Part shown: positions 1 to 18,381 of the stretch, piece by piece | Layout: each line of letters starts with the position of its first letter | How positions within the stretch are numbered: position 1 is the first letter of the stretch | Assembly: GCF_016865425.1 (NCBI RefSeq) | Contig: NZ_AP023355.1 | Location: forward strand, 5,764,198-5,828,197 | Length of the DNA stretch: 64,000 nucleotides | Direction: 5' to 3' | Source of the DNA: Actinocatenispora thailandica | GTDB taxonomy: Bacteria; Actinomycetota; Actinomycetes; Mycobacteriales; Micromonosporaceae | Translations under genes and position numbers: made by a program | The notes under the pieces: model-generated | What the model was told of the DNA's origin: nothing | Databases searched by the model: none | Seen by the model: only the letters and a program-made list of their open reading frames with translations

Positions 1-874
1 ACCAGACGGCGCCGTCGTGCGCCGGGGACACGCCGCGGGCGGACAGCGGGAACTGGTCGACCGTGGCACCGGACGGGTCGGTGAAGTCGAGCTGGTTGCC
101 GGTCTTCGCGTCGAACACCACCAGCTGGCCGTGGTCGTTGCCGAACACCTTGCCGCCCGCGTAGTCGAGGTCGGAGAGTTCGGTACCGCCGAAGCCGGCC
201 GGGGTCAGCTCGGTCACCGCACCGGAGTCGACGTCGATGCGCAGCAGCCGCGCCTTCGGCGTCGCCAGCCCGACGAACAGCGCCCGGTCGTCCGGGTCGT
301 ACGCGGTGGACCGGGCGTACTGCTGCACGTCGTCCAGCGAGCCGTAGTCGGTGACCTGGCCGTCGGCAGGGTCGTAGCGGAACGCGTGCGCGTGCGGGTA
401 CGTGCCGCCGTACACGCTGCCGTCGTCGCCGGCGGACAGGCCGTACAGGAACTGCTCGCCGCCGATCGGCTGGCCGAGGTCGGTCACCGTGCCGTCGGCG
501 GGCGTGTAGCGGTAGAGGTGCGCGTTGGAGTAGCTGCCGACGTACACGCTGCCGTCGGAGGCGACGGTGATCGCCCACGCGCCGGCCGCGCCGGGCAGCG
601 GTACCGCCCGCTTGAGCGTCCGGCTGTGCACGTCGACGACGTTGAGTTCGGCGTTCTCGCCGGCCGGTACCGCGTAGAGGACGTCGGAGCCGTCCGGATC
701 GTGGCCGACCGCGCCCTGCATCACGGTCAGCGAGGTGAGCGGGGTACCGAGGTCCCGTACCGGATCGGCGCCGCCGGCGTGCGCGGTGCCGGCGAGGGCG
801 AGCGGGGCGAGGAGCGCGAGTACGAGGGGGACGAGGCGGAGTCTTCGCACGGTACCGGTGTCGTGTCGTCGCAC
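1..874 (-). CDS. Secreted beta-propeller protein (SMP-30/PQQ-like repeats), 3' end beyond window
   Basis: The reading frame runs off position 1, so about 291 residues are visible. The GTG at 874 is chosen because AGAAGG lies 7-10 nt upstream; an in-frame GTG at 850 is the alternative. An arginine-rich start followed by a leucine/alanine core ending in GTAHA (about residue 33) looks like a signal peptide, so the protein should be exported. The body repeats blades of the kind 'GSVYVGSYSNAHLYRY' and 'YDPADGQVTDYG', as in SMP-30/YVTN/PQQ-like propellers. It resembles the two larger propellers at 9154-13214 and lies 116 bp downstream of the Gfo/Idh gene, probably as the last gene of the transporter operon. 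Substrate or partner is unknown; a ligand-binding or lactonase-like role is only inference. Confidence 0.8.
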   Translation of the reverse strand, partial: MRRHDTGTVRRLRLVPLVLALLAPLALAGTAHAGGADPVRDLGTPLTSLTVMQGAVGHDPDGSDVLYAVPAGENAELNVVDVHSRTLKRAVPLPGAAGAWAITVASDGSVYVGSYSNAHLYRYTPADGTVTDLGQPIGGEQFLYGLSAGDDGSVYGGTYPHAHAFRYDPADGQVTDYGSLDDVQQYARSTAYDPDDRALFVGLATPKARLLRIDVDSGAVTELTPAGFGGTELSDLDYAGGKVFGNDHGQLVVFDAKTGNQLDFTDPSGATVDQFPLSARGVSPAHDGAVW

Positions 875-950
875 GGTGATCCCTTCTCGGAAGCGGAGCT
901 CCGCGCGGCGGCGGAGCCTGGATCAGGGCTGTGCTCGATCCGGCGCCGCA

Positions 951-990
951 CCCGATCGAGCGCCGTGCCCGATCGAGCGCCGTGCCCGAT
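951..990. repeat. Short tandem repeat, 17 bp unit x 2.3
   Basis: Two exact 17-base copies (CCCGATCGAGCGCCGTG) at 951-967 and 968-984 and a partial third lie directly between the stop of the Gfo/Idh gene and the start region of the propeller gene. Confidence 0.8.
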
Positions 991-1848
991 CTAGGGTTGT
1001 GCCAGCTGTTGCGCCACGGCGGCGAGGAACCGCACCGGCCGCGGCAGGTCGTCGAGCGGTAGCGGCGGGGTGCCGGTCCGCACCATCTCGAAGAACGCGT
1101 CCAGCCCCGGATGCAGGTAGTCCGGGCTCAGCTCCAGTGCGGTACCGACGACCTCCGCATGGCCGGTCACCTGCACGTGGAACGGCACCGGCGGGTCGGT
1201 CGGCGCAACGAACTGGACGGTCACCGCGGTTCCGCCGACGACCGCGGTGGCGACCACGATCCCGTCGCCGGTCTGCACCCGTACCGGCCCGACCGGCCCC
1301 GGCGCGAGCAACAGTGCCAGCTCGACCGGGTGGGTGCCGTAGAAGTGGATCCCGGCGTACCGGCTGGCCGGATCGGCCGGCCCGGTGGCCACCACGGCGC
1401 GCGGCCGGACGCGCCGCACCGTGGCGAGCGCCGGATGCCAGCGCAGCGCCGAGTACGAGGTGAGCGGCGCGCCGTGCCGCCGGGCCGCGGCGACCATCGC
1501 CTCGGCGTCGGCGGGATCGGCGGCGAACGGCTTGTCCACCAGTGTCGGCAGCCCGGCGGTCAGGAACGGCAGCGCCTGCCCGGTGTGCCGGCGGGCGTCC
1601 CGGTCGGCGACGACCACCGCATCGACCAGCCCGAGCAGCTCCTCCGGCGCTCCGACCACCCGGTCGATGCCGAGATCGCGTACCCGCTCGTCCGGCGTGG
1701 CCGGCGCGACCGCCACCACCCGGGCCGGGCCGGCGCGGTGCTCGGCGTTGCAGTACCGGACGACGTGGTCGACGTGCGAGCTCTCGGTGCCGACGATGCC
1801 GACCCGCACCTCGTCGCTGCGCCGGCCACTCCGCGCGGCGCCGCTCAC
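991..1848 (-). CDS. Gfo/Idh/MocA family oxidoreductase
   Basis: About 285 aa, somewhat short for the family (usually 330-390). An N-terminal Rossmann strand carries GIVGTESSH near residue 18 in place of the usual GxGxxG. The family EKP-type motif appears as DKPFA near residue 100, and a GIHFYGTHPVEL stretch supplies the histidines typical of the C-terminal half. The family uses NAD(P) to oxidise or reduce sugars, inositols and related alcohols. The start is the GTG whose last two bases begin the stop codon of the upstream permease (GTGA overlap); a GTG at 1809 is an alternative. It is co-transcribed with the ABC transporter, which suggests that it acts on the imported substrate. Confidence 0.85.
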   Translation of the reverse strand: MSGAARSGRRSDEVRVGIVGTESSHVDHVVRYCNAEHRAGPARVVAVAPATPDERVRDLGIDRVVGAPEELLGLVDAVVVADRDARRHTGQALPFLTAGLPTLVDKPFAADPADAEAMVAAARRHGAPLTSYSALRWHPALATVRRVRPRAVVATGPADPASRYAGIHFYGTHPVELALLLAPGPVGPVRVQTGDGIVVATAVVGGTAVTVQFVAPTDPPVPFHVQVTGHAEVVGTALELSPDYLHPGLDAFFEMVRTGTPPLPLDDLPRPVRFLAAVAQQLAQP

Positions 1849-2687
1849 TTCAGCCCGCTCATCGTCACGCCGCGGACGAAGTACCGCTGCAACAGCACGT
1901 AGACGAGCAGGATCGGCAGGAACGTCAGTACCGCGCCGGCCATCGTCACGGTCAACGACGAGTCCTGCGCCTGCAGACTGTTGAGCCCGACGGTGAGCAC
2001 GTAGTGGTCCGGCGAGCGGGTGGCGACCAGCGGCCAGAGGAAGTCGTTCCAGTGCCACAGGAACACGAACACGCCGAGGGTGGCGAGGATCGGCTTGGTC
2101 TGCGGCAGCACGATCTGCCAGAACAGCCGGATCTCGCCGGCGCCGTCGATCCGGGCCGCCTCGATCAGCTCGTCCGGGATGCCCATGATGAACTGCCGCA
2201 TCAGGAACAGCGCCTGGGTGTTGGCCAGTGTCGGCACGATCAGGCCCCACAGCGTGTCCAGCCCGTCCATCTTCGAGATCAGGATGAACTGCGGGATCAG
2301 CGTCAGGTGGTAGGGCACCATCAGGGTGGCCAGCAGCGTCCAGAACATCGCGTTGCGGCCGAAGAACCGTTTCTTGGCGAACGCGTACGCGGCGAACGAC
2401 GCGAACACGAGCACCAGCACGACGCTGATCACCGAGTACGCCGCGGTGTTCAGCATCCAGCGCACCACCTGCGCGTGCGCCAGCACGTCGGCGTACGCGC
2501 CGAAGTTGACGTGGAACGGCAGCAGCGCGTCCGGCAGCGACAGCGACCGCCCCTTGCGCAGCGACAGCACGATCATCACGTAGAACGGGATGATCGTGGC
2601 CACCGCGACGATCGCCAGCGGCAGGTGCGCCCACAGCCGCCGCCGGTTGCGTCGCGACTTCCGGGCGACTCTATCCACAGTGGACAC
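1845..2687 (-). CDS. Carbohydrate ABC transporter permease, MalG type
   Basis: 280 aa inner-membrane permease with about six hydrophobic segments. The EAA loop is visible as EAARIDGAG followed by IVLPQTKP, the site that contacts the ATPase. The C-terminus (FVRGVTMSGLK) is typical of MalG/CUT1-type subunits. The GTG start at 2687 has GGGAGGA about 9 nt upstream and lies next to the stop of the partner permease; the 3' end overlaps the Gfo/Idh start. No ATPase gene is nearby, as is usual for actinobacterial CUT1 transporters that share an MsiK-like ATPase encoded elsewhere. Confidence 0.93.
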   Translation of the reverse strand: MSTVDRVARKSRRNRRRLWAHLPLAIVAVATIIPFYVMIVLSLRKGRSLSLPDALLPFHVNFGAYADVLAHAQVVRWMLNTAAYSVISVVLVLVFASFAAYAFAKKRFFGRNAMFWTLLATLMVPYHLTLIPQFILISKMDGLDTLWGLIVPTLANTQALFLMRQFIMGIPDELIEAARIDGAGEIRLFWQIVLPQTKPILATLGVFVFLWHWNDFLWPLVATRSPDHYVLTVGLNSLQAQDSSLTVTMAGAVLTFLPILLVYVLLQRYFVRGVTMSGLK

Positions 2688-2690
2688 TAT

Positions 2691-3617
2691 TCAGTCCTCC
2701 CGGAACAGGCGCCGCTGCACCAGCGACACGATCAGGGTGATGGCGAACAGCACCACACCGGCGGCGCTGGCGTAACCGAAGTCGAAGTAGTGGAAGCCCT
2801 GGTCGTAGACGAAGAACACCAGCGAGTAGCTGGACCGCACCGGGCCGCCGCCGGTCATCACGTAGATCACGTCGAAGACCTGGAAGGACTGCACGATCTC
2901 CAGGATCACCACGAAGAACATCGCCGGCTTGAGCTGCGGCAGGGTGATGTGCCAGAACCGTTGCCAGGCCGAGGCACCGTCCAGCATCGCCGCCTCGGAG
3001 TACTCCTGCGGGATCGCGAGCAGCCCGGCGAGCAGGATGAGCATGTCGTAGCCGAAGCGGGTCCACACGCTGAGCAGGGACAGCGACGGCAGCACCGCCG
3101 CGCCGGACGACAGCCACGGCACCGGCCCGATGCCGAGCAGGCCGAACAGCCCGTTCAGCGGGCCGTGCTCGGCGTACAGCCACTGCCAGATCACGCCGCT
3201 GGTGACCAGGCTGGTGATCACCGGCAGGAAGTACAGCGCGCGGTAGACCCGGATGCCGCGGATCGAGCGGGCCGACAGCTGCGCCATCGCCAGCGCCACG
3301 ACCAGCGTCAGCGGCACCGCGATCACCGTGTACACCGCGGTCACCCGCAGCGCGTTCCAGAACAGGTCGTCGGTGAACAGCCGCTGGAAGTTGTCCAGCC
3401 CGCGCCACTCGAGGATCCCGGTGATCTGGTACTTCGCCAGGCTCAGCGCCATCCCGGCGAGCGTCGGCAGGATCCGGAAGACCAGGAACAGCAGCAGGTA
3501 CGGTGCGACGAACAGCAGCGCCATCCCGCTGCCCGAACGCCGCATCCGGCTCCAGCGGGACGGGCGCGCCGGTCGGCCGGCAGCCGGCTCGGTCCGCGGC
3601 GCGGTCTGGGTCGTCAT
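2691..3617 (-). CDS. Carbohydrate ABC transporter permease, MalF type
   Basis: 308 aa with an arginine-rich cytoplasmic N-terminus (residues 1-30), then about six membrane segments. The EAA loop reads EAAMLDGAS followed by ITLPQLKP. It forms the pore together with the MalG-type protein encoded immediately downstream (3 bp between stop and start) and would receive solute from the lipoprotein encoded at 3727-4995. ATG at 3617. Confidence 0.93.
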   Translation of the reverse strand: MTTQTAPRTEPAAGRPARPSRWSRMRRSGSGMALLFVAPYLLLFLVFRILPTLAGMALSLAKYQITGILEWRGLDNFQRLFTDDLFWNALRVTAVYTVIAVPLTLVVALAMAQLSARSIRGIRVYRALYFLPVITSLVTSGVIWQWLYAEHGPLNGLFGLLGIGPVPWLSSGAAVLPSLSLLSVWTRFGYDMLILLAGLLAIPQEYSEAAMLDGASAWQRFWHITLPQLKPAMFFVVILEIVQSFQVFDVIYVMTGGGPVRSSYSLVFFVYDQGFHYFDFGYASAAGVVLFAITLIVSLVQRRLFRED

Positions 3618-3686
3618 GTGCCGCTCCTGTTCTCCGGGGCCGCCACGGAAAGGATCGACGCCGTCCGGTGGGAACCCCTTGCCGAT

Positions 3687-3718
3687 GCCGCCGCCCGGAC
3701 CGTGATCCGGGCGGCGGC
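3687..3718 (-). terminator. Intra-operon GC hairpin after the binding-protein gene
   Basis: A perfect 13-bp stem (GCCGCCGCCCGGA, loop CCGTGA, TCCGGGCGGCGGC) lies 8 bp past the stop of the solute-binding protein and 70 bp before the next permease. Such a hairpin usually stabilises or partly terminates the message so that the binding protein is made in excess over the permeases. Confidence 0.65.
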
Positions 3719-3726
3719 GTGCCGGG

Positions 3727-4995
3727 TCAGCCCCGGGCGAGTTGCTTGTTGGCGTCCTTCTCGGCGTCCGCGAGCGCCTGCTTGACGCTGACCTTGCCGA
3801 GCAGCGCCGCCTGCAGGTGCGGCTTGATGACGTCCATCAGCTGCCGCGGTGCGGCGGCGTTGGTGACGCCGGTCTTCATGTCACCGAGGTACTTCTCGCT
3901 CTCGCCCACCAGCGGCTGGTCGGCCAGCAGGCTGCCCTGCGAGGTGCGCGTGGACGAGTAGCCGTGGTCCAGGTCGAACTGCTTGAGCTGGCTCGGCGAG
4001 CTGATCCACTGCACCCACGCCTTCGCGGCGGCGGCGTTCTTCGACCCGGACAGCACGCTCAGCCCGCCGACCGTGCCGTACGAGACCGACTTGGACTCCT
4101 GCAACGGCGCGGCGACCTGCCAGTCGCTCGCCTGGTACCCGGGGCAGATGGTCACCTCGGCGGTGGCGCTGGCGAACCCGAACGCCGCTTTGCCGGTGCA
4201 CAGCACGCTCTGGTCCGGTTTGGGGGTGACGGTCAGGCTGTCCTTCGGGACGTAACCCCGGTCCACCAGCGTCTTGACGAACGTCAGCGCCTTGACCCCG
4301 GCCGGCGAGTTGAACGCGGCCTTCTTCCCGTCCGGCGACAGCACGGTGCCGCCGGCCTGCCACAGCAGCGGGTAGAAGGTCTGGTTCAGGGTGGCGTCCG
4401 GCGAGGCCACGTAGTCGGTGAGGTACAGGCCCTTCTTCTTCAGCTTGGCGCCGTCGGCCAGCGCCTCGTCCCAGGTCGCCGGCGGCGCGTCGATACCGGC
4501 CTTGGCCAGCACCTTCTTGTTCGCCACGGTGGCCGTCACCGACATCAGCATCGGCACGCCGTACAGCTTGTCCTGGTAGGTCATCGCGGCCAGGGCGTTC
4601 TGCCGGAAGTCGCCCTTGTCCTTGGCCACCACGTCGGACACGTCGGCCAGCGCCCCGGTGTTGGCGTACTGCGGGATCTGGTCCGGGATCAGGTACACCA
4701 CGTCGGGGCCCTTGCCGCCGGCGATGGCGGTGGTCAGCTGCTCGTCCCGGTTCGCCCACGGCTGGACGACGACCTTGACGTTCACCTTGGAGTACTTCTT
4801 CTCGAAGGCCGCGATCCTGGACTTCCACCAGGTGTTCTCGATCTTCTCGTTGATCGGGTAGATCCACATGGTGACCGTGCCGGACACCTTGCTGGGATCG
4901 GACGGCACCTTCGCGTCCGAGCCCGAGCTGCATGCGCTGGCGGTCACCGCCAGTACGCCCGCGACCAGCGCCGCGGCCATTGCCCGTACTCGCAT
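3727..4995 (-). CDS. ABC transporter solute-binding lipoprotein (sugar type)
   Basis: 422 aa. The N-terminus MRVRAMAAALVAGVLAV is a lipoprotein signal, with ASAC as lipobox at about residue 22-25, so the mature protein would be anchored outside the membrane. The body has cluster-B/MalE-type binding protein features (VTMWIYPINEKIENTWW, GKGPDVVYLIPDQ, AKAWVQWISSPSQLKQFD). ATG at 4995 is chosen with GGGAG 8 nt upstream; a GTG three codons earlier is possible. First gene of the leftward transporter operon; a hairpin follows the stop. The ligand cannot be told from sequence. Confidence 0.93.
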   Translation of the reverse strand: MRVRAMAAALVAGVLAVTASACSSGSDAKVPSDPSKVSGTVTMWIYPINEKIENTWWKSRIAAFEKKYSKVNVKVVVQPWANRDEQLTTAIAGGKGPDVVYLIPDQIPQYANTGALADVSDVVAKDKGDFRQNALAAMTYQDKLYGVPMLMSVTATVANKKVLAKAGIDAPPATWDEALADGAKLKKKGLYLTDYVASPDATLNQTFYPLLWQAGGTVLSPDGKKAAFNSPAGVKALTFVKTLVDRGYVPKDSLTVTPKPDQSVLCTGKAAFGFASATAEVTICPGYQASDWQVAAPLQESKSVSYGTVGGLSVLSGSKNAAAAKAWVQWISSPSQLKQFDLDHGYSSTRTSQGSLLADQPLVGESEKYLGDMKTGVTNAAAPRQLMDVIKPHLQAALLGKVSVKQALADAEKDANKQLARG

Positions 4996-5143
4996 TGCCT
5001 GCACTCCCTGTCCGTGACTCGCTTGGATGGCCGCGTCGAAGCAGGTACCGAGGTTGCCGGCGACCGGCGCGGCCGGCAGCACCGGGGCGAGGCCCCACAG
5101 CCGAAGACCCGCGGACCTGAGAGGCGGTGAGTCCTCAAACCAA

Positions 5144-5160
5144 TTACGGTCGTGCCTGAA
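5144..5160. promoter_or_regulatory. Putative operator A (TTACGGTCGTGCCTGAA)
   Basis: Imperfect palindrome of the form TTnnGG...CCnnAA, preceded by CCAA. The block CCAATTAnGGTC recurs at 13253-13264 and TTACGGTCG recurs exactly at 13352-13360. It lies between the transporter operon and the 5358 operon, so one regulator could control both. The binding protein is unknown; the regulator at 7450 is a candidate. Confidence 0.5.
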
Positions 5161-5233
5161 GTCACGATGAACATAGCTAGGCTCGGATGTGCGGTCAATA
5201 CCTGCGGCAACAGTGACCGTGGAGCGGGAACCG

Positions 5234-5262
5234 TTGACGCGCCGTCGAGCAGCGGATACTTT
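5234..5262 (+). promoter_or_regulatory. Promoter of the 5358 operon (TTGACG-N17-TACTTT)
   Basis: A near-consensus housekeeping promoter: -35 TTGACG at 5234-5239, a 17-bp spacer and -10 TACTTT at 5257-5262. Transcription would begin near 5269, leaving a leader of about 90 nt with a GGAGGAG ribosome site before ATG 5358. Confidence 0.6.
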
Positions 5263-5357
5263 CGGCGCAGCCCTTATTCTGGAGGAGCGGGCGCCCGGTG
5301 GCACCGACGCCGGACCCACCCCGGCCCCTCCCCCAGCCCGCAGTGGAGGAGATACCG

Positions 5358-6377
5358 ATGACGGCGCTGCGCACGCTGATCGCCCGCCGGGTCCACGAGC
5401 CGGACGACCGGCTCATCGAGCAGCTCGGCCACACCGACGGCGACCTGGTCGTGCTCGGCGCCGCCGGCAAGATGGGCGTGAGCCTGGCCCGGATGGCCGC
5501 GGAGGCGTTCGCCCGGCTCCCCGGCGGCCGCCGGGTGCACGCCGTGTCCCGGTTCTCCGACCCGCAGGCCCGCACCGAACTCGACGAGGCCGGCGTGCAC
5601 ACCGTCGCCGCCGACCTGACCGACGAGGCGGCGCTCGCCAACCTGCCGGACGCGCCGAACGTGGTGTACATGGTGGGGCGCAAGTTCGGCACCGCCGCCG
5701 ACGCGGCGACCACCTGGGCGCTCAACACCTACCTGCCGGGCCGGGTGGCGCAGCGCTACGCCGGCACCAACTTCGTCGCGTTCTCCAGCGGCAACGTCTA
5801 CCCGCTGGTGCCGCCGCACTCCGGGGGCGCCGACGAGACCGTCGCGCCGGACCCGGTCGGCGAGTACGCGCAGTCCTGCCTCGGGCGGGAGCGGGTGCTG
5901 ACCCACCAGGCGGCGGCGACCGGCAGCCGGCTCGGGATCATCCGGCTCAACTACGCCATCGACTGCCGGTACGGGGTGCTCACCGACATCGCCCGCGCGG
6001 TGCGCGCCGGCGAACCGGTCGAACTGGGCAACGCCGCGGTCAACGTGGTCTGGCAGGGCGACGCCAACCGGTACGTGCTGAGCACGCTCGCGCACCTCGG
6101 CAGCAGCCCGCTGGTGCTCAACGTGACGGGCCCGGAGACGGCCTCGGTGCGCTGGCTCGGCACCGAACTCGGCCGCCGGCTCGACCGCGAGCCGGTGTTC
6201 AGCGGCGCCGAGGCCGACACCGCGCTGCTGTCCAACGCGGCCCGCTGCTTCGGCCTGTTCGGTTACCCGTCGGTCAGCCTGGCCGAGATGCTCGACTGGA
6301 CCGCGGCGTGGCTGCTGGAGGGCGGCCCGCTGCTGGACAAGCCCACCCACTTCACCGAGCGCGCGGGCAAGTTCTGA
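5358..6377 (+). CDS. NAD-dependent epimerase/dehydratase-like protein, atypical SDR
   Basis: 339 aa. An extended-SDR Rossmann fold is shown by DLVVLGAAGKMG at about residues 28-39 and by FSSGNVYPL near 150. The catalytic Tyr-x-x-x-Lys pair is not intact: the expected place reads GEYAQSC, with Cys instead of Lys, so it may bind NAD(P) and a sugar nucleotide or keto-acid without normal dehydrogenase chemistry. ATG 5358 is preferred to an in-frame ATG at 5298 because GGAGGAG precedes it. Its stop overlaps the next start (TGATG), so the two are translationally coupled. Probably handles the substrate of the cluster; the reaction is unknown. Confidence 0.83.
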   Translation: MTALRTLIARRVHEPDDRLIEQLGHTDGDLVVLGAAGKMGVSLARMAAEAFARLPGGRRVHAVSRFSDPQARTELDEAGVHTVAADLTDEAALANLPDAPNVVYMVGRKFGTAADAATTWALNTYLPGRVAQRYAGTNFVAFSSGNVYPLVPPHSGGADETVAPDPVGEYAQSCLGRERVLTHQAAATGSRLGIIRLNYAIDCRYGVLTDIARAVRAGEPVELGNAAVNVVWQGDANRYVLSTLAHLGSSPLVLNVTGPETASVRWLGTELGRRLDREPVFSGAEADTALLSNAARCFGLFGYPSVSLAEMLDWTAAWLLEGGPLLDKPTHFTERAGKF

Positions 6378-8736: not shown

Positions 8737-8883
8737 GGCTCTGACCGTCCGGGGTGATGGTCCATCTCTGTGCGCTGAGGTGTGCCCTGGAGCGGTGGTG
8801 CAAAGGCCACCTCTGTTCGCGGTCTGAGCCCGCGTGGGGGAATGCGAGGAGAGGGCTTCGCCCCCTCCTCGCGCTCCTTCCCC

Positions 8884-8907
8884 GTCAAGGGGCCTTCGCC
8901 CCTTGAC
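8884..8907 (+). terminator. Hairpin terminator after the regulator gene
   Basis: Perfect 10-bp inverted repeat GTCAAGGGGC / GCCCCTTGAC with a CTTC loop, 148 bp past the stop at 8736. There is no clear T tract, so bidirectional GC-hairpin termination is assumed. Confidence 0.6.
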
Positions 8908-8983
8908 CATCCCCCGTCGGGGGAACGGTGACGAGGTCCGGACGCCGCCTGGCCTTCTCGGAATGTCGGGGGCCGGTGCTCGC

Positions 8984-9033
8984 CGTCGGGGAGCCATGCC
9001 GCTACGGGGCTCGCGTCGGGGAGCCATGCCGCT
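8984..9033. repeat. 20-bp direct repeat, two copies
   Basis: CGTCGGGGAGCCATGCCGCT occurs at 8984-9003 and again at 9014-9033, a 30-bp period, in the convergent gap. Confidence 0.85.
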
Positions 9034-11109: not shown

Positions 11110-13214
11110 CCCGGCACCACCCGGTAGACGCGGGTGTTGGCGCCGAGGAAGGCGGTGCCGTCCGGGGCGACCGCGAGGTAGTCGGCGTCGGTGTCGAGCA
11201 CCGTGCTCACCGTGAGGTCGGCGCGCGCCACCCGGTGCAGCGCGCCGCCGGCCAGGACGAGGAAGGTGTCCGACCCGGCGTGGTAGCCGAGCCGGCCGGT
11301 GCCGGTGGCGACCGCGACCTGGCGGGTCACGGTACGGCTGGGCAGATCGAAGGCGAACAGGGTGCCCGCGGCGAGCCCCCACACGCCGCCGTCGGCGTCG
11401 ACGGCCAGGCCGTCGACCGACTCGGCGCCCGGTACCGGTACCGCCTCGAACGTCTTCGCCTCGGCCACCGGGTCGAAGCCGAACAGCTTCGCCTCGGTCT
11501 GCGTCGGCGCCGGCACCGAGTAGCCGCCGTGGATGGAGGTGCCGCCGACGATCGTGCCGCCGGTGTACGCCAGCGACACGATCGACTGGTCGGTGACCAC
11601 CGGCCGGTGCACGCTCGCCGCGTTGGTCGCCTTGGCCACCACCACCAGCGCGCCACCCAACGTCGTGTTCGGCATCGTGCCGTACGCGACGTGGTCGCCC
11701 GCGTCGACGCTGGCCCGGGCCCGTACCTGGTCGTGGTCGTGCAGGTCGACGACCTTCACCGGGTTGTCCGGGGTGCCGGCCGGCCCCGGCGAGTACTCCG
11801 CGCTGCTCCACGGCTGGCTCGGGTCGTACCGGTAGAGCCGGGCGTCCGGGTAGGTGCCGAGCCAGATCGAGTCGCCCAGGTCGAGGACGCTCTCGGTCTG
11901 CGCGAACCGGTGGAACGTCGGCGATCCGGTCTGCGGATCCAGCTGTGCGAGCCCGCCGTTGAGGTACCCGCCGGCCCACAGCCGCCCGGTGGCCCCGACC
12001 GCGAGGCTGGCCAGCGGGATCGGCTCGCCCGGGAGGTCGGTCGCGCTGAGTTCCCCGGCGCCGGTCTTCGGGTTGTAGCGGAACATCTCGCCGCGCCACA
12101 GCAGCCCGACCAGCGTCCGTCCCGGGTGGTCCCGGTCGGGCAGGTCGACCCAGCCGATGCCGCGGTTGTTGACCACCCGGCCGGCGAACGTCAGCCCGGT
12201 GCCGACCTCGGTACCGGTGCGCGGCAGCAGCCCGGTCAGTTCCCCGCCGCGGGTGTAGTAGACCAGGCCGCCGGGCCCCGGCTCGGACACGTCCAGCCCG
12301 GCGACGTGGTCGCGCAGCGGCCCCCAGCTCTGCCGGCGGGTGTCCCAGATCCCGAGGCTGCCGTCGATGGCGGAGCCGAACCGGGCGTACACCAGGCCGC
12401 GGTAGGCGTCCAGGTCGTACACGGTGCTGCCGGCGCCGTCGCCGACCTCGGCCGGCAGCGGCAGCTCGCGGCGGGCGCCGGTGACGATGTCGATCTCCAC
12501 CAGGTGCGCGTCCGGCTGGGTACCGACGTACAGCTTCCCGCCGTCGGTGGCGATGCTGCGGGCGTACGACATGCCCGGTACGACCGTGCCGTAGTCGCGC
12601 ACCGCGCCGGTCGCCGGGTCGTAGCCGAACGCGCGGGCGTGCGGGTAGGTGCAGCCGTACACGACGCCGGCGTCGTCGACGGCCAGCCGCCAGACGTACG
12701 ACTCGCCGGGCAGTGGCTGGCCGAGGTCCTCGATCTCGCTCTGCCGTCCCGGCGGCCGGCGGAACAGCTGCCCGGTGCCGTACGCGCCGACCCAGACGGT
12801 GCCGTCCGGACCGAGCGCCACCCCGTAGGACCCGGGGGCCCCAGTCAGCGGCTGGCTGGAGACGGTCTTCGCGGTACGCGGGTCGACCGCGACCAGGTGC
12901 GCCGGGTCGCCGGACACCGCCGACCACAGCACCGGCCGGCCGTCCGGGCCGGGGCCCACGGCGCCGCCGATGGCCAGTACGTCGGAGAGCGGGATGCCGA
13001 GGTCGGCCAGCGTCGCGGCGGCGGTCGCGGGTGCCGGACCGGCGAGGGCCGGGCCGGTGAGGGCGGCGCCGGGCAGCGCACCGGCCGCGACGGCGCCGCC
13101 GAGGGCGACAACGAAGGTACGGCGGGACAGCCGCCCGCTCAGTTCGGGGTGCGGTTCGCCGCGGCGGGGAGCGGCGGACGCGTCGGGGTGGGGAGCGTGT
13201 CGGGGTGTGGGCAC
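11106..13214 (-). CDS. Tat-exported beta-propeller protein
   Basis: 702 aa. LSRRTFVVALGGAVAAGALPG at about residues 29-49 is a twin-arginine signal (S-R-R-T-F), so the protein is expected to cross the membrane folded, often a sign of a cofactor. The body has propeller blades (VGAYGTGQLFRRPPGR, GCTYPHARAFGYDPATG, LGTYPDARLYRYDPSQ). GTG 13214 is chosen because GGAGG lies 4 nt upstream; a TTG at 13256 gives a longer frame but lacks such a site. First gene of a two-gene operon, 43 bp downstream of operator B. It resembles the partial propeller at 1-874 in blade wording. Confidence 0.85.
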   Translation of the reverse strand: MPTPRHAPHPDASAAPRRGEPHPELSGRLSRRTFVVALGGAVAAGALPGAALTGPALAGPAPATAAATLADLGIPLSDVLAIGGAVGPGPDGRPVLWSAVSGDPAHLVAVDPRTAKTVSSQPLTGAPGSYGVALGPDGTVWVGAYGTGQLFRRPPGRQSEIEDLGQPLPGESYVWRLAVDDAGVVYGCTYPHARAFGYDPATGAVRDYGTVVPGMSYARSIATDGGKLYVGTQPDAHLVEIDIVTGARRELPLPAEVGDGAGSTVYDLDAYRGLVYARFGSAIDGSLGIWDTRRQSWGPLRDHVAGLDVSEPGPGGLVYYTRGGELTGLLPRTGTEVGTGLTFAGRVVNNRGIGWVDLPDRDHPGRTLVGLLWRGEMFRYNPKTGAGELSATDLPGEPIPLASLAVGATGRLWAGGYLNGGLAQLDPQTGSPTFHRFAQTESVLDLGDSIWLGTYPDARLYRYDPSQPWSSAEYSPGPAGTPDNPVKVVDLHDHDQVRARASVDAGDHVAYGTMPNTTLGGALVVVAKATNAASVHRPVVTDQSIVSLAYTGGTIVGGTSIHGGYSVPAPTQTEAKLFGFDPVAEAKTFEAVPVPGAESVDGLAVDADGGVWGLAAGTLFAFDLPSRTVTRQVAVATGTGRLGYHAGSDTFLVLAGGALHRVARADLTVSTVLDTDADYLAVAPDGTAFLGANTRVYRVVPG

Positions 13215-13256: not shown

Positions 13257-13273
13257 TTAAGGTCATGGCTCAA
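13257..13273. promoter_or_regulatory. Putative operator B (TTAAGGTCATGGCTCAA)
   Basis: Related to site A: CCAATTAnGGTCnTGnCTnAA aligns over 21 bases. It lies 43 bp before the Tat propeller gene. An overlapping near-palindrome (CCTTATTGCCAATTAAGG, 13245-13262) extends it towards the gene. Confidence 0.5.
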
Positions 13274-13351
13274 ATGGTTCGCTGCAGGACGGTAGCGCCG
13301 GTGCGGACATGCGGTCAATGGGACTACCTGCCGCCTTCCCCTTGCCTGGCC

Positions 13352-13369
13352 TTACGGTCGCGACCATAA
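13352..13369. promoter_or_regulatory. Putative operator C (TTACGGTCGCGACCATAA)
   Basis: The most symmetrical copy: TTACGGTCG against CGACCATAA is a near-perfect 18-bp palindrome with one mismatched pair. It shares TTACGGTCG exactly with site A and lies 98 bp upstream of the aminotransferase start. Confidence 0.55.
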
Positions 13370-13466
13370 TCGGCCGTACCTGCCGGCCTGCAGCACGCCA
13401 CCACCGACCCGCCCGGCGCACCTGCGCGCTGCCGACCCGCCGGCCGGCCGAGCCGCAGGAGGCACG

Positions 13467-14717
13467 ATGACGCTCGCCCTCGACGGCGGCACACCGGTAC
13501 GCGACACGCCCTTCCCCACCGTCTCGGACGCGTCCGGCCGGACCTTCGGCGCCGCCGAGGCAGCCGCCGCGGCCCGAGTCGTCGCGTCCGGCGCGCTGTG
13601 GCGCGTCACCGGCACCGAGGTCGACGCGCTGGAGCGCGAGTTCGCCGGCTACCTGGGTGTCGGGCACGCGGTGGCCAGCACGTCCGGTACCGCCGCGCTG
13701 CACCTGGCGGTCGCCGCGATCGACCCCGAGCCCGGAGACGAGGTGATCGTCCCGCCCATCACCGACTTCGGCACCGTGATCGCCGTACTGGCCTGCAACG
13801 CGGTGCCGATCTTCGCCGACGTCGACCCGGTCACCGGCTGCCTCACCGCGCAGACCGTCGCGGCCAAACTGTCCGAGCGCACCCGGGCCGTCCTCGCGGT
13901 ACACCTGTTCGGCGGGCCGGCGCCGATCGACGAGATCGTCGCGCTGTGCCGGCCGCGCGGCGTCGCGGTCATCGAGGACTGCGCCCAGGCGTACCTGACG
14001 GTGCCGGCCGGCGGCACCACCTGGGCCGGCACCCGCGGCGACATCGGCTGCTTCAGCCTGCAGCAGTCCAAGCACATCAGCGCCGGCGACGGCGGGCTGA
14101 CCGTCACCGACGATCCGGCGCTCGCCCGGCGGATGCGGCTGTTCGCCGACAAGGGCTGGCCGCGCGACACCGGCGAGCGCACCCACCTGTTCTACGGCCT
14201 CAACTACCGGATGACCGAACTGGTCGGCGCCGTCGCTCGGGTGCAGCTGACCCGGCTGGCCGGCGTGGTCGCCGCCCGCCGGTCGGTGGCCCGCCGGCTG
14301 GTCGACGGTCTCGCCGACCTGCCCGGCCTGCGGCTGCCCGCGCCGGCCGAGATCGAGCGGCACAGCTTCTGGCTGTTCCCGATGCTGCTCGACCCGGACG
14401 TCGCCGGCGCCGACAACGCCCGCTTCGGCGCCGCGCTGGCCGCCGAAGGCATCCCGGTCACCGCCGGCTACCTGGACCGGCCCGTCTACCTCAACCCGGC
14501 GCTGACCGAACGGCACGTCTTCGGTACCTCCGACTTCCCGTTCACCTCGCCGCCGGCCCGCACCGAGATCCGGTACGCGGCCGGCGACTGCCCGGTCGCC
14601 GAGGACCTGATCGGCCGCACCCTGCTCGTGCTGCAGTGCAACGAGCGGTTCACCGAGCGGGACGTCGACGACATCGTCGAGGCGGTACGGAAGGTGGCCA
14701 AGCATCATGCGCGCTGA
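13467..14717 (+). CDS. DegT/DnrJ/EryC1/StrS-family PLP aminotransferase
   Basis: 416 aa, normal for the family. The fold-type I features are present: STSGTAALHLAV (phosphate-binding, about residues 72-83), DEVIVPPITDFGT, IEDCAQAY with the PLP-ring aspartate, and SLQQSKHISAGDGG, whose Lys (about residue 206) should hold PLP. FYGLNYRMTELVGAV matches the substrate-side motif. These enzymes move amino groups to or from keto-sugars and cyclitols. AGGAGG precedes ATG 13467. It overlaps the next gene by 11 bp and heads a three-gene operon with two amidohydrolase-like genes, so here it may deaminate an amino sugar or cyclitol rather than build one (inference). Confidence 0.92.
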   Translation: MTLALDGGTPVRDTPFPTVSDASGRTFGAAEAAAAARVVASGALWRVTGTEVDALEREFAGYLGVGHAVASTSGTAALHLAVAAIDPEPGDEVIVPPITDFGTVIAVLACNAVPIFADVDPVTGCLTAQTVAAKLSERTRAVLAVHLFGGPAPIDEIVALCRPRGVAVIEDCAQAYLTVPAGGTTWAGTRGDIGCFSLQQSKHISAGDGGLTVTDDPALARRMRLFADKGWPRDTGERTHLFYGLNYRMTELVGAVARVQLTRLAGVVAARRSVARRLVDGLADLPGLRLPAPAEIERHSFWLFPMLLDPDVAGADNARFGAALAAEGIPVTAGYLDRPVYLNPALTERHVFGTSDFPFTSPPARTEIRYAAGDCPVAEDLIGRTLLVLQCNERFTERDVDDIVEAVRKVAKHHAR

Positions 14718-15432
14718 GCCGATCCGGTACGACTGCGACACCCTCTGCGGTACCTGGCCGGCCCGGGCCGAGCTCGACTTCCGCCCCGAGGCGGTACGCG
14801 CGAAACTCACCGCCGCCGGCATCGAGACCGGGCTGGTCTGCTCCGGCCGGGGCGCCTGGTTCGACGACATCGACGGCAACACCGAGACGCTCGCCGCCGG
14901 TCCCGGATTCGTCCCGGTCGGCACGATCAACCTGCGGCACGCGCTGCGGGCCGAGGCCGAGCTGGACCGGATCCGCGCCGCCGGAGTACGCGCGGTGCGG
15001 CTGTTCGGTCCGCTGCAGGGCTGCGAACCGGTGTTCCCCGGCTACCGGCACGTCGTCGACGAGGTGCTGGCCCGGGGTCTGCTGCCGCTGGTGGAGGGCG
15101 ACATACGCAGCTGCTGGCCGGCGTTCGCCGACCGCGGCGCGCGGGTGGTGTTCCTCGACGTACACGCGTACCACCTGGCCGACTTCGTGCTGCTGGCCCG
15201 GCGCGAGCCCGGCTTCGTCGCGTCCACCCGGCTGTTGAACGCACCCGACTCGATCGAGACCGTCGTGGGCGAGGTGGGGGCCGGCCATCTCACGTTCGGC
15301 TCCCGCACCCCGCTGCACGACACATCGCCGGCGGTGCTGCGGATGCGGCACGCCCGGCTGTCCGACGCCGACTGGGCCGCCGTCACCGGCGGCACCCTCG
15401 AAGCCCTCCTGAAGAACAGGGTGAAGCCGTGA
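14707..15432 (+). CDS. Amidohydrolase-like TIM-barrel protein lacking metal ligands
   Basis: 241 aa. It follows the outline of the amidohydrolase_2 family (FGSRTPLHDTSPAVLR near the end matches the family FGTDxP region), but the N-terminal HxH metal motif is absent: the place reads YDCDTLCG. The late catalytic Asp region reads FGSRTP instead of FGTD. It is therefore probably non-hydrolytic, perhaps a partner or regulatory subunit of the intact amidohydrolase encoded directly downstream (GTGA overlap). ATG 14707 overlaps the aminotransferase stop by 11 bp. Confidence 0.75.
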   Translation: MRAEPIRYDCDTLCGTWPARAELDFRPEAVRAKLTAAGIETGLVCSGRGAWFDDIDGNTETLAAGPGFVPVGTINLRHALRAEAELDRIRAAGVRAVRLFGPLQGCEPVFPGYRHVVDEVLARGLLPLVEGDIRSCWPAFADRGARVVFLDVHAYHLADFVLLARREPGFVASTRLLNAPDSIETVVGEVGAGHLTFGSRTPLHDTSPAVLRMRHARLSDADWAAVTGGTLEALLKNRVKP

Positions 15433-16196
15433 AGAACCATCCGGTGATCGACGTGCACGGGCACTGGGGTCCGTGGTTCTTCGCGATGGACATCGGCGAC
15501 GTCGCCGAGAACCTGCGGGTGATGGACGAGTGGGGCATCAGCCTGCAGATCGTCTCCGCGTCCGAGGCGGTCACCTACGACGCGCCCGGCGGCAACGCCC
15601 GGCTCGCCGAGATCCTCGCCGCGAACCCGCGGCTGCGCGGCTACCTGGTGGCGAACCCGAACGATCCGGCCGCCACCGAGGCCGACCTGCGCCGGTACGC
15701 CGGCACGGGGCTGTTCTGCGGCGTCAAGATCCACACCGGGTACCCGCGCCGGGAGATCTCCTCGCCGCAGATGCGCGACACGTTCGCGCTGCTGAACGAG
15801 TACGCGGCGACGATCCTGATCCACACCTGGGGCGGTGACGTGCTCGACCTGCCCGGCCTGCTCGCCGCCAACCCGCGGCTGCGGGTGATCGCCGCGCACA
15901 TGGGCGCGAACCGCTGGGACCTCGCCGCCGAGGCCGCCCGCGACTGCGACCGGCTCTACCTCGAACCGTCCTGCTCGATCACCGACGCCGGCCAGGTCGC
16001 GCACGTCGCCGCCCGGGTACCGGCCGGGCAGCTGCTGTTCGGCACCGACGCCACGCTGATCGACCCGGCGGTGTCGTTCGGTCAGGTCGAGGACGCCGCG
16101 CTGGACCCGGCCACCGCCGAGGCGCTGTACTGGCGCAACGCCGCGGCACTGTTCGACCTCGCCGCCCCGGCCGAAGCCGCGTACGCCGCCCGGTGA
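15429..16196 (+). CDS. Amidohydrolase_2 family metal-dependent hydrolase/decarboxylase
   Basis: 255 aa. Metal-site motifs are intact: DVHGHWG (HxH at about residues 10-12), KIHTGYP, ILIHTWGG, IAAHMGANRWDL and LFGTDATLID with the terminal Asp. The family includes ACMSD-like decarboxylases, lactonases and hydrolases of ring or keto acids. The GTG start overlaps the preceding stop. Together with the aminotransferase and the degenerate paralogue it forms the plus-strand operon of the cluster. Confidence 0.88.
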   Translation: MKNHPVIDVHGHWGPWFFAMDIGDVAENLRVMDEWGISLQIVSASEAVTYDAPGGNARLAEILAANPRLRGYLVANPNDPAATEADLRRYAGTGLFCGVKIHTGYPRREISSPQMRDTFALLNEYAATILIHTWGGDVLDLPGLLAANPRLRVIAAHMGANRWDLAAEAARDCDRLYLEPSCSITDAGQVAHVAARVPAGQLLFGTDATLIDPAVSFGQVEDAALDPATAEALYWRNAAALFDLAAPAEAAYAAR

Positions 16197-16234
16197 CGGA
16201 CCGCATTCCGGCCGCCGCCGCGGACCGCAGCGGG

Positions 16235-16378
16235 GTGGCCGGCGATGACCGCCCCGGTGAGGCCGCCGCCGACCCCAGCGCGGTGGCCGGCGGTGACTGC
16301 CCAGGTGGGGCCGCCGCGGGCCGCCGCGGGGTGGCCGGCGGCGAGTGCCCCGGTGGAGCTGCCGCGCGCCGGCGGTCA
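16235..16378. repeat. 48-bp imperfect tandem repeat, three copies
   Basis: Copies begin at about 16235, 16283 and 16331 with GTGGCCGGCG. The period is a multiple of three, so the plus frame reads a 16-residue repeat (VAGGDCPGGAAAGRRG), but nothing else supports a gene. The array fills the gap between the amidohydrolase stop and the end of the convergent aldolase gene. Confidence 0.7.
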
Positions 16379-17347
16379 GCCGCCGACCGCGTCCCGGTAG
16401 GCGGCGGCGACGGCGGCGCGCTCGGCCGGGTCCGGCCGGACCCCGTGCGGGTCGTGCGCCGACGCCGCCGGGATGATGCCCTCGCGCTCGGCCGCCCAGA
16501 GCATGCGCTGCACGTACCCGTCCATCGGGTCGCGGAACACCGCGGCGGCGAACCGGTCCAGCCGCCGCGCCGCCACCACGAACGCCGCCGTCTCGCCGGC
16601 GAACCAGGCGTGCACCAGCCGGGCGGACAGCTCGGCGACCGCGGCCGCCACACCGACCAGCGCGGCATCCGCGCCCCAGAGCAGCGACGGGCCGAACATC
16701 CGGTCCTCGCCGGTGATCGCGAGCGCACCGCCGGCATGGATCGCCGCGATCGCGTCCTGGCAGGCCACCGCGTCGTACAGGGTGGCCAGCTTGACGCCGA
16801 ACACCTCCGGCCGCGCCGCCAGCTCGGTCAGCAGCGCCGGCGGGTAGCTGACCCCACCCGCCTCGGGGTACAGCAGGAAGCCGGTCACCGGCAACCCGGC
16901 CGCGGCGGCCACCTCGGCGTGCAGCCGGATCGTCCGCTCCGCCCGGGTCTGCGGTGCGCGCAGGCTCGACACCGGGTAGACCATCAGCGCGTCCGCGCCG
17001 CCGGCCGCGGCCCGCTCGGCCAGCCGGGCGGTCGCGGCGCACTGGCTGGCGAAGTCGTCGCCGGTGCCGGCCGGCGGGCCGACCGCGGCGAGCAGCGGCC
17101 CGTCGGTCGCGGCCCGGAACGCGGCGAGTACCGCGTCCCGCTGGGTGTCGGTGAGCTCCAGGCCACGGGCGGTGTGCGCCCAGACGCAGACGCCGTCGAC
17201 CGCGCCGGCGATGGCCGCCGCGTACCGGTCGAGGTCGGCGGGGGCGATGTGCGCCGATTCGTCCATCGGGGTCACCGGCGCGGCGATCAACCGACCGCGG
17301 ATCGCCTCGGTCAGCCGCGGCGTCGTGTCGGCCAGCTCGTCGCCCAC
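16376..17347 (-). CDS. Dihydrodipicolinate synthase/N-acetylneuraminate lyase family protein
   Basis: 323 aa. The Schiff-base lysine sits in VFGVKLATLYD, about 30 residues after the conserved tyrosine in ALMVYPVSS; PVTPMDESAHI is the usual N-terminal signature. The pyruvate-carboxylate loop (GTTGE in DapA) reads AHTARG, so the substrate differs from DapA. GTG 17347 is preferred because GGAGGGGGAG precedes it; ATG 17395 adds 16 residues but has no ribosome site. It is convergent with the amidohydrolase operon and divergent from the dehydrogenase. It may cleave a 2-keto-3-deoxy-type intermediate to pyruvate plus an aldehyde (inference). Confidence 0.87.
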   Translation of the reverse strand: MGDELADTTPRLTEAIRGRLIAAPVTPMDESAHIAPADLDRYAAAIAGAVDGVCVWAHTARGLELTDTQRDAVLAAFRAATDGPLLAAVGPPAGTGDDFASQCAATARLAERAAAGGADALMVYPVSSLRAPQTRAERTIRLHAEVAAAAGLPVTGFLLYPEAGGVSYPPALLTELAARPEVFGVKLATLYDAVACQDAIAAIHAGGALAITGEDRMFGPSLLWGADAALVGVAAAVAELSARLVHAWFAGETAAFVVAARRLDRFAAAVFRDPMDGYVQRMLWAAEREGIIPAASAHDPHGVRPDPAERAAVAAAYRDAVGG

Positions 17348-17409
17348 CCGCTCCCCCTCCCGGTCCCCGGACGTGTCCTGCCCGAATCCTGCCATCCGAA
17401 GGGAGCACG

Positions 17410-18381
17410 ATGATCGACCATCCGGTGCTGGTGAGCGTGTCCCCCGCGCTGCGTCGCCAGTTCTTCCCGGCCGGGCTGCCCGGATTCCGGCTGGTGGACG
17501 ACCATACCGGGCTCGCCGCGGCGCTGCCCGGCACGGAGATCCTGGTGACCAGCTGGGGTCAGCCGCGGCTGTCCGCCGAGCTGCTGGACCTCGCGCCGCG
17601 GCTGCGGCTGGTGGCGCACACCGGCGCCACCGTCAAGTTCTTCGTCACCGACGAGCTGTTCGACCGGGGCGTCCGCGTCACGCAGGCCGGGCAGGCGATG
17701 GCGCCGGCGGTCGGCGAGGTGGCGCTCGCGTTCACCCTGGCACTGCTGCACCAGTTGCCCCGGTTCGACCACGCGTTGCACGCCGGTACCGGCTGGGACC
17801 AGGCATCGGGCGCCCCGGCCCGGCACGAGATCGCCGGCTGCCCGATCGGGGTCGTCGGCGCCTCCCGTACCGGCCGGGCGTACATCGCGATGGCCCGGGC
17901 GCTCGGCGCCACGGTGTCGGTCGCCGACCCGCTGCTCACCGAGGCGGACGCCGCCGCGCTCGGGGTACGCCGTACCGACCTGGACACGCTGCTGCGTTCC
18001 TCGCGGATCGTCGTCCTGCACGCCCCGGTACTGCCGGAGACGCGGCACCTGATCGGCGCCCGGGAGCTGGCGCTGATGCCGGACGGTGCCGGCCTGGTCA
18101 ACACCGCCCGGTCCTGGCTGGTGGACGAGCACGCGCTGCTCGCCGAGCTGGCCACCGGCCGGCTCGACGCCGCGATCGACGTGTACGACGCCGAACCGCT
18201 GCCCGCCGACCACCCGCTGCGCGGCCTGCGCAACGTGCTGCTCACCCCGCACCAGGCCGCCGGGACGGTCGAGGGCCGGCGCCGCCAGGGCGACATCGTC
18301 CTCGCCGAGATCGACCGCTACCGGTCCGGCCGCCCGCTGGAACACGAGGTCACCCCCGCCGACCTCGACCGGATGGGCTGA
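17410..18381 (+). CDS. D-isomer-specific 2-hydroxyacid dehydrogenase
   Basis: 323 aa. An N-terminal catalytic half is followed by an NAD-binding half with GVVGASRTGRAYIAMARALG (about residues 149-168; GxxGxxG reads G-V-V-G-A-S-R-T-G). Later motifs are VVLHAPVLPETRHLI, LVNTARSWLVDE and the catalytic His in LLTPHQAAGT; the usual NxxRG reads NTARS. The family reduces 2-keto acids or oxidises D-2-hydroxyacids with NAD(P). AAGGGAG precedes ATG 17410. The likely role is at the keto-acid end of the pathway. Confidence 0.88.
   Translation: MIDHPVLVSVSPALRRQFFPAGLPGFRLVDDHTGLAAALPGTEILVTSWGQPRLSAELLDLAPRLRLVAHTGATVKFFVTDELFDRGVRVTQAGQAMAPAVGEVALAFTLALLHQLPRFDHALHAGTGWDQASGAPARHEIAGCPIGVVGASRTGRAYIAMARALGATVSVADPLLTEADAAALGVRRTDLDTLLRSSRIVVLHAPVLPETRHLIGARELALMPDGAGLVNTARSWLVDEHALLAELATGRLDAAIDVYDAEPLPADHPLRGLRNVLLTPHQAAGTVEGRRRQGDIVLAEIDRYRSGRPLEHEVTPADLDRMG

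Follow-up and report, generated by a model that had tools for sequence, protein, structure and literature searches.

A putative sugar-type catabolic regulon with an uncharacterised core in Actinocatenispora thailandica

The 64,000-bp stretch of the Actinocatenispora thailandica genome analysed in this work (NZ_AP023355.1, positions 5,764,198 to 5,828,197; hereafter the window) carries at positions 1-18381 a set of about 15 genes, running from propA, which encodes an exported propeller protein, to a D-2-hydroxyacid dehydrogenase gene (Table 1). Genes were predicted with a codon-usage caller and assigned to families through Pfam and NCBIfam scans. All the families that a first-pass annotation of the sequence had named at this locus were found: genes for an ATP-binding cassette (ABC) importer, a Gfo/Idh/MocA oxidoreductase (Gfo/Idh), an extended short-chain dehydrogenase/reductase (SDR), two lyases of the dihydrodipicolinate synthase family (DHDPS1 and DHDPS2), a DegT/StrS aminotransferase (DegT), two amidohydrolase homologues (AH1 and AH2), the 2-hydroxyacid dehydrogenase, a regulator with a sensor part and a winged helix-turn-helix (wHTH) and three exported propellers. 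These families are known individually, and we regard the set as a catabolic regulon of sugar type whose core is unusual and uncharacterised. That the genes would form one regulon is held with high confidence because of their co-inheritance in other genomes and of an operator-like palindrome which they share, both established by sequence comparison.

Table 1. Genes and operator-like sites of the set, in window coordinates.
Feature	Position	Strand	Evidence or remark
propA, exported propeller, 5' part in window; 751 aa in genome	1..850	-	PF21959 (DUF6923) E 3.5e-14
Gfo/Idh/MocA oxidoreductase, 285 aa	991..1848	-	PF01408 E 3.2e-10; DKP motif
Sugar-type ABC permease B (permB)	1845..2678	-	PF00528 E 4.2e-20
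Sugar-type ABC permease A (permA)	2691..3524	-	PF00528 E 8.7e-16
Solute-binding lipoprotein (SBP)	3727..4980	-	PF01547 E 3.3e-41
Operator-like palindrome between SBP and SDR operons	5144..5162	+	pattern search
Extended SDR, YxxxK Lys lost (YAQSC)	5343..6377	+	TerB-/GalE-type structures by profile
DHDPS1, class I lyase; Thr55/56, Tyr150, Lys178 kept	6377..7453	+	profile and model
Sensor-wHTH regulator	7474..8736	+	domain scan
propB, exported propeller, 651 aa	9154..11109	-	PF21959 E 4.5e-8
propC, exported propeller, 702 aa, predicted all-beta	11106..13214	-	gene caller; structure model
Operator-like palindrome, 42 bp upstream of propC	13257..13275	+	pattern search
Operator-like palindrome, 96 bp upstream of DegT	13352..13370	+	pattern search
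DegT/StrS aminotransferase, pyridoxal phosphate (PLP) Lys kept (QQSKH)	13467..14717	+	PF01041 E 9.9e-83
AH1, degenerate amidohydrolase homologue, 4/5 metal ligands lost	14707..15432	+	no Pfam match
AH2, Amidohydro_2 protein, complete metal site	15429..16196	+	PF04909 E 3.2e-26
DHDPS2, second DHDPS-family lyase	16376..17395	-	PF00701 E 4.2e-11; best solved match YagE, E 4.3e-5
D-2-hydroxyacid dehydrogenase, Arg/Glu/His kept	17410..18381	+	PF02826 E 3.2e-46

The genes are arranged around two divergent control regions. The first separates the SBP-permA-permB-Gfo/Idh-propA operon (minus strand) from SDR-DHDPS1-regulator (plus strand), and the second propC-propB (minus strand) from DegT-AH1-AH2 (plus strand); DHDPS2 (minus strand) and the 2-hydroxyacid dehydrogenase gene (plus strand) form another divergent pair with 14 bp between them. 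As read in the genome, propA continues 1404 bp past the left end of the window. The overlapping operons of the first-pass annotation were recovered at most same-strand junctions (-4, +12, -1, +20, -4, -11 and -4 nt, five of them overlaps of 1-11 nt), the exceptions being gaps of +140 nt between propA and Gfo/Idh and +202 nt between permA and SBP, with which the SBP operon may be transcribed as more than one transcript. The SBP start codon may sit slightly upstream of the called one (by eye). The uptake system comprises SBP and two permeases and, as had been noted, no importer ATPase gene was found in the cluster; a stand-alone ATPase of sugar-importer type, above the NCBIfam curated cut-off, is encoded elsewhere in the same genome (G000:94528-95613).

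The control regions of the window and of the related cluster of genome G004 have in common a palindrome close to TTACGGTC-N2-GACCGTAA, which precedes the operons. Its copy at 5144-5162 lies 163 bp from the called start of SBP and 180 bp from that of SDR. The pattern TTAMGGTCRYGNCYVWADT was derived from six sites (three of the window and three of G004), the test being its absence elsewhere. It occurs at exactly three places in the 7.43-Mb genome of A. thailandica and at three in the 8.9-Mb G004, all of them in the cluster; no match was obtained in nine further genomes, some of which bear the cluster with a diverged site, or with a reversed-pattern control. When up to two mismatches were allowed, the window gave four matches, corresponding to the three sites (one on both strands), for a mean of 0.07 in shuffled sequence.

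A position matrix built from the same six sites was applied to clusters outside that set. The top score, 25.8, was reached upstream of SDR in loci L146, L148, L154 and L155, followed by 22.8 in L149 and 22.5 in L142, the background maxima being 16.5 in about 65 kb of A. thailandica sequence and 17.4 in 30 shuffled loci. Nine clusters outside the matrix set contained 18 sites scoring at least 15, and 16 of these lay no more than 150 bp upstream of cluster homologues, a zone that makes up 7.4% of the sequence of these clusters; of the other two, one precedes a propeller homologue by 172 bp and one an Idh-like gene (by eye) by 20 bp. Five of the nine clusters belong to one genus and share one identical site, about 14 of the 18 sites being distinct. 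L145, where AH1 stands alone, scored 21.6 at a point some 170 bp upstream of that gene. A second, wider pattern gave matches in 9 of 15 genomes. In seven of them (G738, G742, G766, G667, G749, G796 and G651, the tally of the last one counting a contig-end repeat) all matches were in the cluster or a few kb from it. The single match of G033 precedes a propB homologue, some 540 bp before its called start. G784 gave eight match rows, of which six were at its cluster, including one site matched on both strands, and two lay away from it; no match was obtained in G000 (A. thailandica), G004, G115, G129, G163 or G741.

By direct reading, L142, L148 and L149 have a TTGAC-N17/18-TACGGT promoter whose -10 region is covered by the palindrome, which suggests that the palindrome acts as a repression site. 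The predicted natural reader of the palindrome would be the wHTH regulator, since it is encoded in the cluster and belongs to a family with a degenerate GGDEF domain (GGDEF_GdpP in 15 of the 18 members scanned); in the window's own copy the search detected no GGDEF-type domain.

AH1 homologues were found in 16 of the 397 genomes of the order and, at phylum level, only in A. thailandica and one other of 396 genomes, while DHDPS1 was present in 6 of 200 genomes of the order, A. thailandica included. In 11 of the 16 AH1-bearing genomes (G000, G004, G115, G651, G667, G738, G741, G742, G749, G766 and G796) SDR and DHDPS1 lie in the same cluster. Permease homologues occur in all 11 stretches, with only 32-42% identity in G115 and G741, whose importer is possibly another one. 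The gene order of the window is kept in G004, at about 60-85% identity and without propB in place; in other genomes the order is reshuffled and members are dropped. Contig ends interrupt the clusters of G033 and G129, in each of which a single contig carries DegT, AH1 and AH2, and G784 has a related cluster with the palindrome, its AH1 match being elsewhere on the contig. Outside the order, Nonomuraea gerenzanensis (Streptosporangiales) carries within about 15 kb AH1, AH2, DHDPS2, the importer, DegT, the regulator, DHDPS1, SDR, an Idh-type gene (by eye) and two propB homologues. The co-occurrence search in other actinomycetes proposed with the first-pass annotation found the set recurring, reshuffled, in several genomes, and the claim of one system was upheld by the set being kept together in 11 of 16 AH1-bearing genomes and in N. 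gerenzanensis, with the operator-like palindrome shared in most. In G651 each end of one contig carries the cluster (L147 and L148), one copy having broken frames; this is possibly an assembly overlap of a circular chromosome.

Several observations weigh against a single inherited regulon. AH1 and SDR-DHDPS1 are on different contigs in G163, and around the weak AH1 match of G079 no cluster gene was recognised. No regulator homologue was found in the 20 kb examined in G115. The stretches of G115 and G741 lack both DHDPS2 and the 2-hydroxyacid dehydrogenase, the latter being absent also from the G796 stretch and from the 32 kb read in N. gerenzanensis. In G115 and G741 the pattern search found no palindrome in the genome, and the best matrix scores in their clusters were 11.5 (L019) and 5.9 (L143), so that the palindrome seems to be lacking there, and this lowered the weight given to the regulon; no score above 11.5 was obtained in L019 (G115), L143 and L144 (G741) or L151 (G129). 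In the window, the 14 bp that separate DHDPS2 from the 2-hydroxyacid dehydrogenase gene contain no palindrome. Finally, the matrix has false positives, with 19.9 inside an unrelated gene of L152 besides those of up to 17.4 in the 30 shuffled loci.

The SDR and DHDPS1 genes were found together far beyond this group. A scan of GTDB genomes for DHDPS1 gave at least 587 encoding stretches, and the best 80 of these, which are not a random sample (loci L024-L103), come from many phyla by their titles. We take these phyla to be Actinomycetota, Bacillota, Bacteroidota, Pseudomonadota, Acidobacteriota, Planctomycetota, Chloroflexota, Deinococcota, Gemmatimonadota, Verrucomicrobiota, Omnitrophota, KSB1 and others. 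Among these best 80 of 587, SDR was present in 76 loci, not being found in L064, L073, L087 and L093, and lay directly upstream of DHDPS1 in an operon in 69 of the 79 loci with a called gene; in L047 the two genes are 4.8 kb apart on opposite strands. The pair seems to be a module of its own because it stands alone in Larkinella and with the regulator only in Streptosporangium (both by eye). Plasmid copies often occur with sugar ABC genes, and their products are annotated as 'NAD-dependent epimerase/dehydratase' or 'NAD(P)-dependent oxidoreductase' (SDR) and as 'dihydrodipicolinate synthase family protein' (DHDPS1). On two Streptomyces plasmids a hydroxyacid dehydrogenase gene lies directly downstream of the pair.

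The altered active site that had been noticed in SDR proved to be general in the family. In 84 ungapped alignment rows (one gapped row being left out of the 84) the active-site Tyr was always present, and the position of the YxxxK Lys was occupied by Cys (67), Val (8), Ser (4), Ala (3), Gly (1) or Thr (1), and never by Lys. The six commonest variants of the glycine-rich motif read G-x-x-G-K-[ML]-G, and the family profile matches TerB- and GalE-type solved structures (Rossmann fold). SDR is probably not an ordinary Tyr/Lys dehydrogenase. The sequence of DHDPS1 itself had no Pfam or NCBIfam match at E 0.01, PF00701 included, and its family profile matches solved chains of DHDPS and N-acetylneuraminate lyase (NAL). 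Lys178, which would form the Schiff base, Tyr150 and Thr56 are present in 91 of 91 sequences and Thr55 in 90, with Ser in the remaining one. The AlphaFold model of DHDPS1, with a mean predicted local distance difference test (pLDDT) value of 87.6, has a TIM-barrel lyase fold nearest to sialate lyase, DHDPS and HOGA1 (Foldseek matches to 5c54 at E 7.8e-12 and to 3s5o at TMt 0.84). We infer that SDR and DHDPS1 may act in two steps, the last of them a pyruvate-type cleavage. The import and pyruvate-type aldol cleavage previously put forward are supported in part, namely by the sugar-type importer and by two class I lyases with Schiff-base Lys and Tyr, which fit them.

An NRAMP-like transporter gene, odd for a metal transporter, is present in the SDR-DHDPS1 operon of 14 loci (e.g. 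L048, 7680-8933, by Pfam), 12 members lying at position -2. In L032, L037 and L039 (Paenibacillus and Cohnella) serine-dehydratase alpha- and beta-like genes lie just 3' of DHDPS1 (by Pfam in L032 and L037), and in the Pseudonocardia locus L029 the operon encodes a DUF993 (PF06187) protein (4739-5761), a family found in 3 of 142 operon neighbours tallied.

The paired amidohydrolases of the first-pass annotation stand as two adjoining homologues, of which AH1 lacks the metal site. All five metal ligands (HxH, two further His and Asp) are kept in 11 of 11 AH2 sequences, the window protein being of 255 aa. At the same positions AH1 has Asp, Leu, mostly Gly, His and mostly Arg, so four of the five ligands are lost in 8 of 8 sequences, and AH1 gave no Pfam match and no PDB match at E 0.1. 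In the window the two genes share 4 nt, and in G749 they make up one open frame; on the basis of this natural fusion an AH1-AH2 complex is proposed, in which AH1 looks like a catalytically silent partner of AH2. Since AH2 is nearest by profile to gamma-resorcylate decarboxylase and related enzymes, decarboxylation would be as open a possibility as hydrolysis of a lactone or amide. In DegT, the PLP Lys (FSxQxxK-type motif) is kept in 10 of 10 rows, and the nearest solved relatives include 2-deoxy-scyllo-inosose aminotransferases. In L144, L150 and L152, parallel clusters combine a pair of amidohydrolases with a regulator of the same family; sugar-type importers adjoin them, and SDR-DHDPS1 is absent. 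L144 has an FAA hydrolase, L152 a heparinase II/III protein, and L150 and L152 class III aminotransferase-like genes (by eye).

The three propellers are paralogues, and propC has a twin-arginine-like signal (by eye). The propC model (pLDDT 80.5) is all-beta with 54 strands in about 13-14 blades, and the protein is probably a tandem propeller. Its 50 best Foldseek rows were eukaryotic tandem WD40 proteins and two-component propeller sensors at TM scores of at most 0.42; among such generic matches a relationship with known polysaccharide lyases found no support. DUF6923 was discarded as a genome-wide marker because it is too insensitive, finding propA only in the A. thailandica genome. A run of six propellers adjoins the cluster of G766 (L158), and none was seen in the stretches of G738, G741 and G742. 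Bacillus-type loci (L028, L076 and L097) combine propellers and DegT near SDR-DHDPS1, with a carbohydrate-binding module in L028, which hints that the propellers could bind or cleave a glycan outside the cell.

Other features of the window lie apart from these genes. Between the convergent regulator and propB genes there is a hairpin-rich interspersed repeat (8790-8960) with 27 matches in the genome including itself, at no more than 89% identity excluding self and with several copies close to contig ends; the RNA fold of 8760-8990 gave a z of -3.1 and two long hairpins. An imperfect tandem repeat with a 24-nt step occupies 16190-16365, between AH2 and DHDPS2. Two adjoining genes at 39207-40997 and 41251-43221 encode similar-looking exported proteins of about 600-650 aa.

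Clues about the substrate came from genes added in related clusters. GH20 is encoded in L030 and L143 (Pfam) and in L034 (blast cluster), BadF-type kinases and ceramidase-like proteins in L019 and L156 (the latter ceramidase-like protein below the Pfam cut-off), SIS in L156, a ROK kinase and an enolase-type protein in L143, and an acetyl xylan esterase in L142. A galactosamine-type operon adjoins L143, and NagA/NagB-like genes adjoin L152 (both by eye). Amino sugars are the commonest theme, and GH20, the BadF-type kinases, SIS and the ceramidase-like proteins lean towards an amino sugar over a free cyclitol as substrate, the window itself being without those added genes. Against this stand the absence of a glycosidase, kinase or deacetylase from the window itself, the presence of GH20 and similar genes in some relatives only, and the neighbours of the pair. 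SDR-DHDPS1 is also found beside NRAMP-like and tripartite tricarboxylate transporters and in loci without sugar genes (by eye); therefore, the pair alone is no pointer to an amino sugar. Moreover, in a tally of operon neighbours (142 of 256 eligible scanned, 25 of 100 families listed, raw counts) Gfo/Idh led among the families listed with 16 of 142, followed by xylose-isomerase-like TIM barrels with 9, GH20C having 2, and for this reason we hold amino-sugar-type chemistry as evenly balanced.

Searches of openly licensed papers, covering the listings in part, found no description of this gene set, in line with the earlier statement that no characterised pathway is known to have this combination; searches on lactonases, GGDEF regulators and DUF6923 gave none either. 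The non-phosphorylative sugar-acid routes comprise the Weimberg, Dahms and De Ley-Doudoroff pathways, in which DHDPS-family aldolases serve. Routes I-III of PMC6336799 were used as comparison. Like the window, these routes have clustered sugar genes; they oxidise without phosphorylation and split a 2-keto-3-deoxy acid into pyruvate and a small aldehyde or acid. Unlike them, the window has DegT, AH1/AH2, a Lys-less SDR with DHDPS1 and exported propellers. An IlvD-type route was rejected, no IlvD/EDD or enolase-type sugar-acid dehydratase being among the Pfam matches of the window; the enolase-type protein of L143 belongs to a relative only. DHDPS1 resembles NanA of sialic acid catabolism in its N-acetylneuraminate-lyase fold and Schiff-base residues, but it is only about 20% identical to NanA chains and its own sequence is unmatched by PF00701; sialic acid catabolism was rejected, the window Pfam matches including no NanE, NanK or sialidase. 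Inositol and rhizopine catabolism (iol/moc) employs a Gfo/Idh dehydrogenase and a sugar ABC importer. The window shares both, its DegT is close to scyllo-inosose aminotransferases and a MosA structure is among the fold matches of DHDPS1; however, it differs in having two lyases and amidohydrolases, and this route was rejected with no IolB-, IolC-, IolD- or IolE-type gene among the window Pfam matches. Finally, AH2 is like the PF04909 metal-dependent decarboxylases (gamma-resorcylate decarboxylase and ACMSD) in its five ligands and profile match, and unlike them it is short and paired with a metal-free AH1 in the clusters examined.

The rival explanations differ in substrate, in the direction of the pathway or in whether there is a pathway at all. 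The same regulon might act on a uronic or aldonic acid, a 3-keto-glycoside or a neutral glycan, DegT being then a PLP dehydratase or isomerase or aminating an intermediate. The leading place of Gfo/Idh and xylose-isomerase-like barrels among the listed neighbours of the pair favours this, as a mix of these two families is known from keto-sugar and cyclitol routes, and so do the heparinase II/III of L152, the enolase-type protein of L143 and the acetyl xylan esterase of L142. However, DegT keeps the PLP Lys, unlike the His-type dehydratases; most of its best named solved relatives are aminotransferases, with dehydratases lower down the list; and the parallel clusters seem to pair another aminotransferase type with amidohydrolases (by eye). 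We consider a non-amino-sugar substrate rather unlikely.

DegT/StrS enzymes are mostly biosynthetic, and together with the 2-deoxy-scyllo-inosose aminotransferases among the solved relatives of DegT this would speak for a cluster that makes or tailors an aminocyclitol or amino sugar and uses its importer for salvage. The Pfam matches of the set, however, include no glycosyltransferase, nucleotide-sugar enzyme or exporter, importer-type permeases occur in all 11 clusters, and two lyases and a 2-hydroxyacid dehydrogenase fit breakdown, which makes biosynthesis very improbable. Still less credible is a loose hot spot of sugar genes without a single pathway. The shuffled gene order and the loss of single genes among genomes would agree with it, but a reshuffled order with kept content and the same palindrome upstream is expected from selection for one regulon; AH1 is rare in the phylum, and the confinement of TTAMGGTCRYGNCYVWADT to the cluster and the concentration of matrix sites upstream of cluster genes strongly disfavour it.

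We consider it very probable that the regulon is catabolic. The full explanation that we prefer, a single substrate-induced catabolic regulon breaking down an amino-sugar-type glycoconjugate, seems somewhat better than an even chance. According to this explanation, the wHTH regulator would repress from palindromes overlapping or abutting promoters and be released on binding a pathway metabolite. The exported propellers would bind or cut an external glycoconjugate, most likely of an N-acylated amino sugar or amino-sugar acid, and the lipoprotein and two permeases would import the product, powered by the shared stand-alone ATPase (a putative pairing). Gfo/Idh could then oxidise a hydroxyl to a ketone, DegT exchange amino and keto groups, and AH2, probably complexed with the metal-free AH1, hydrolyse (as a lactone or amide) or decarboxylate the product. 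SDR-DHDPS1 and DHDPS2 would convert the keto acid to pyruvate-type fragments, for which Lys178 of DHDPS1 would form a Schiff base. The leftover small keto or hydroxy acid would be handled by the 2-hydroxyacid dehydrogenase. The lack of a kinase in the window suggests a non-phosphorylative route. This exact order of steps is doubtful.

These results turn a group of familiar families into a testable regulon with a candidate operator, whose inducer, and hence the substrate, could be found by a reporter screen. AH1/AH2 would clearly exemplify an amidohydrolase that has a pseudoenzyme as its partner. Tentatively, and with slightly less than even confidence, SDR-DHDPS1 can be viewed as a two-protein catalytic module for one uncharacterised C-C cleavage, plugged into many unrelated catabolic clusters in about a dozen phyla. 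In actinomycetes, a single conserved operator and a wHTH regulator of GGDEF descent would wire this module to secreted tandem propellers and to an amidohydrolase of heteromeric type, and the whole would represent a new type of catabolic pathway with a new central metabolite. As the pair is widespread yet without specific annotation, solving it once would annotate several hundred known copies (at least 587 encoding stretches).

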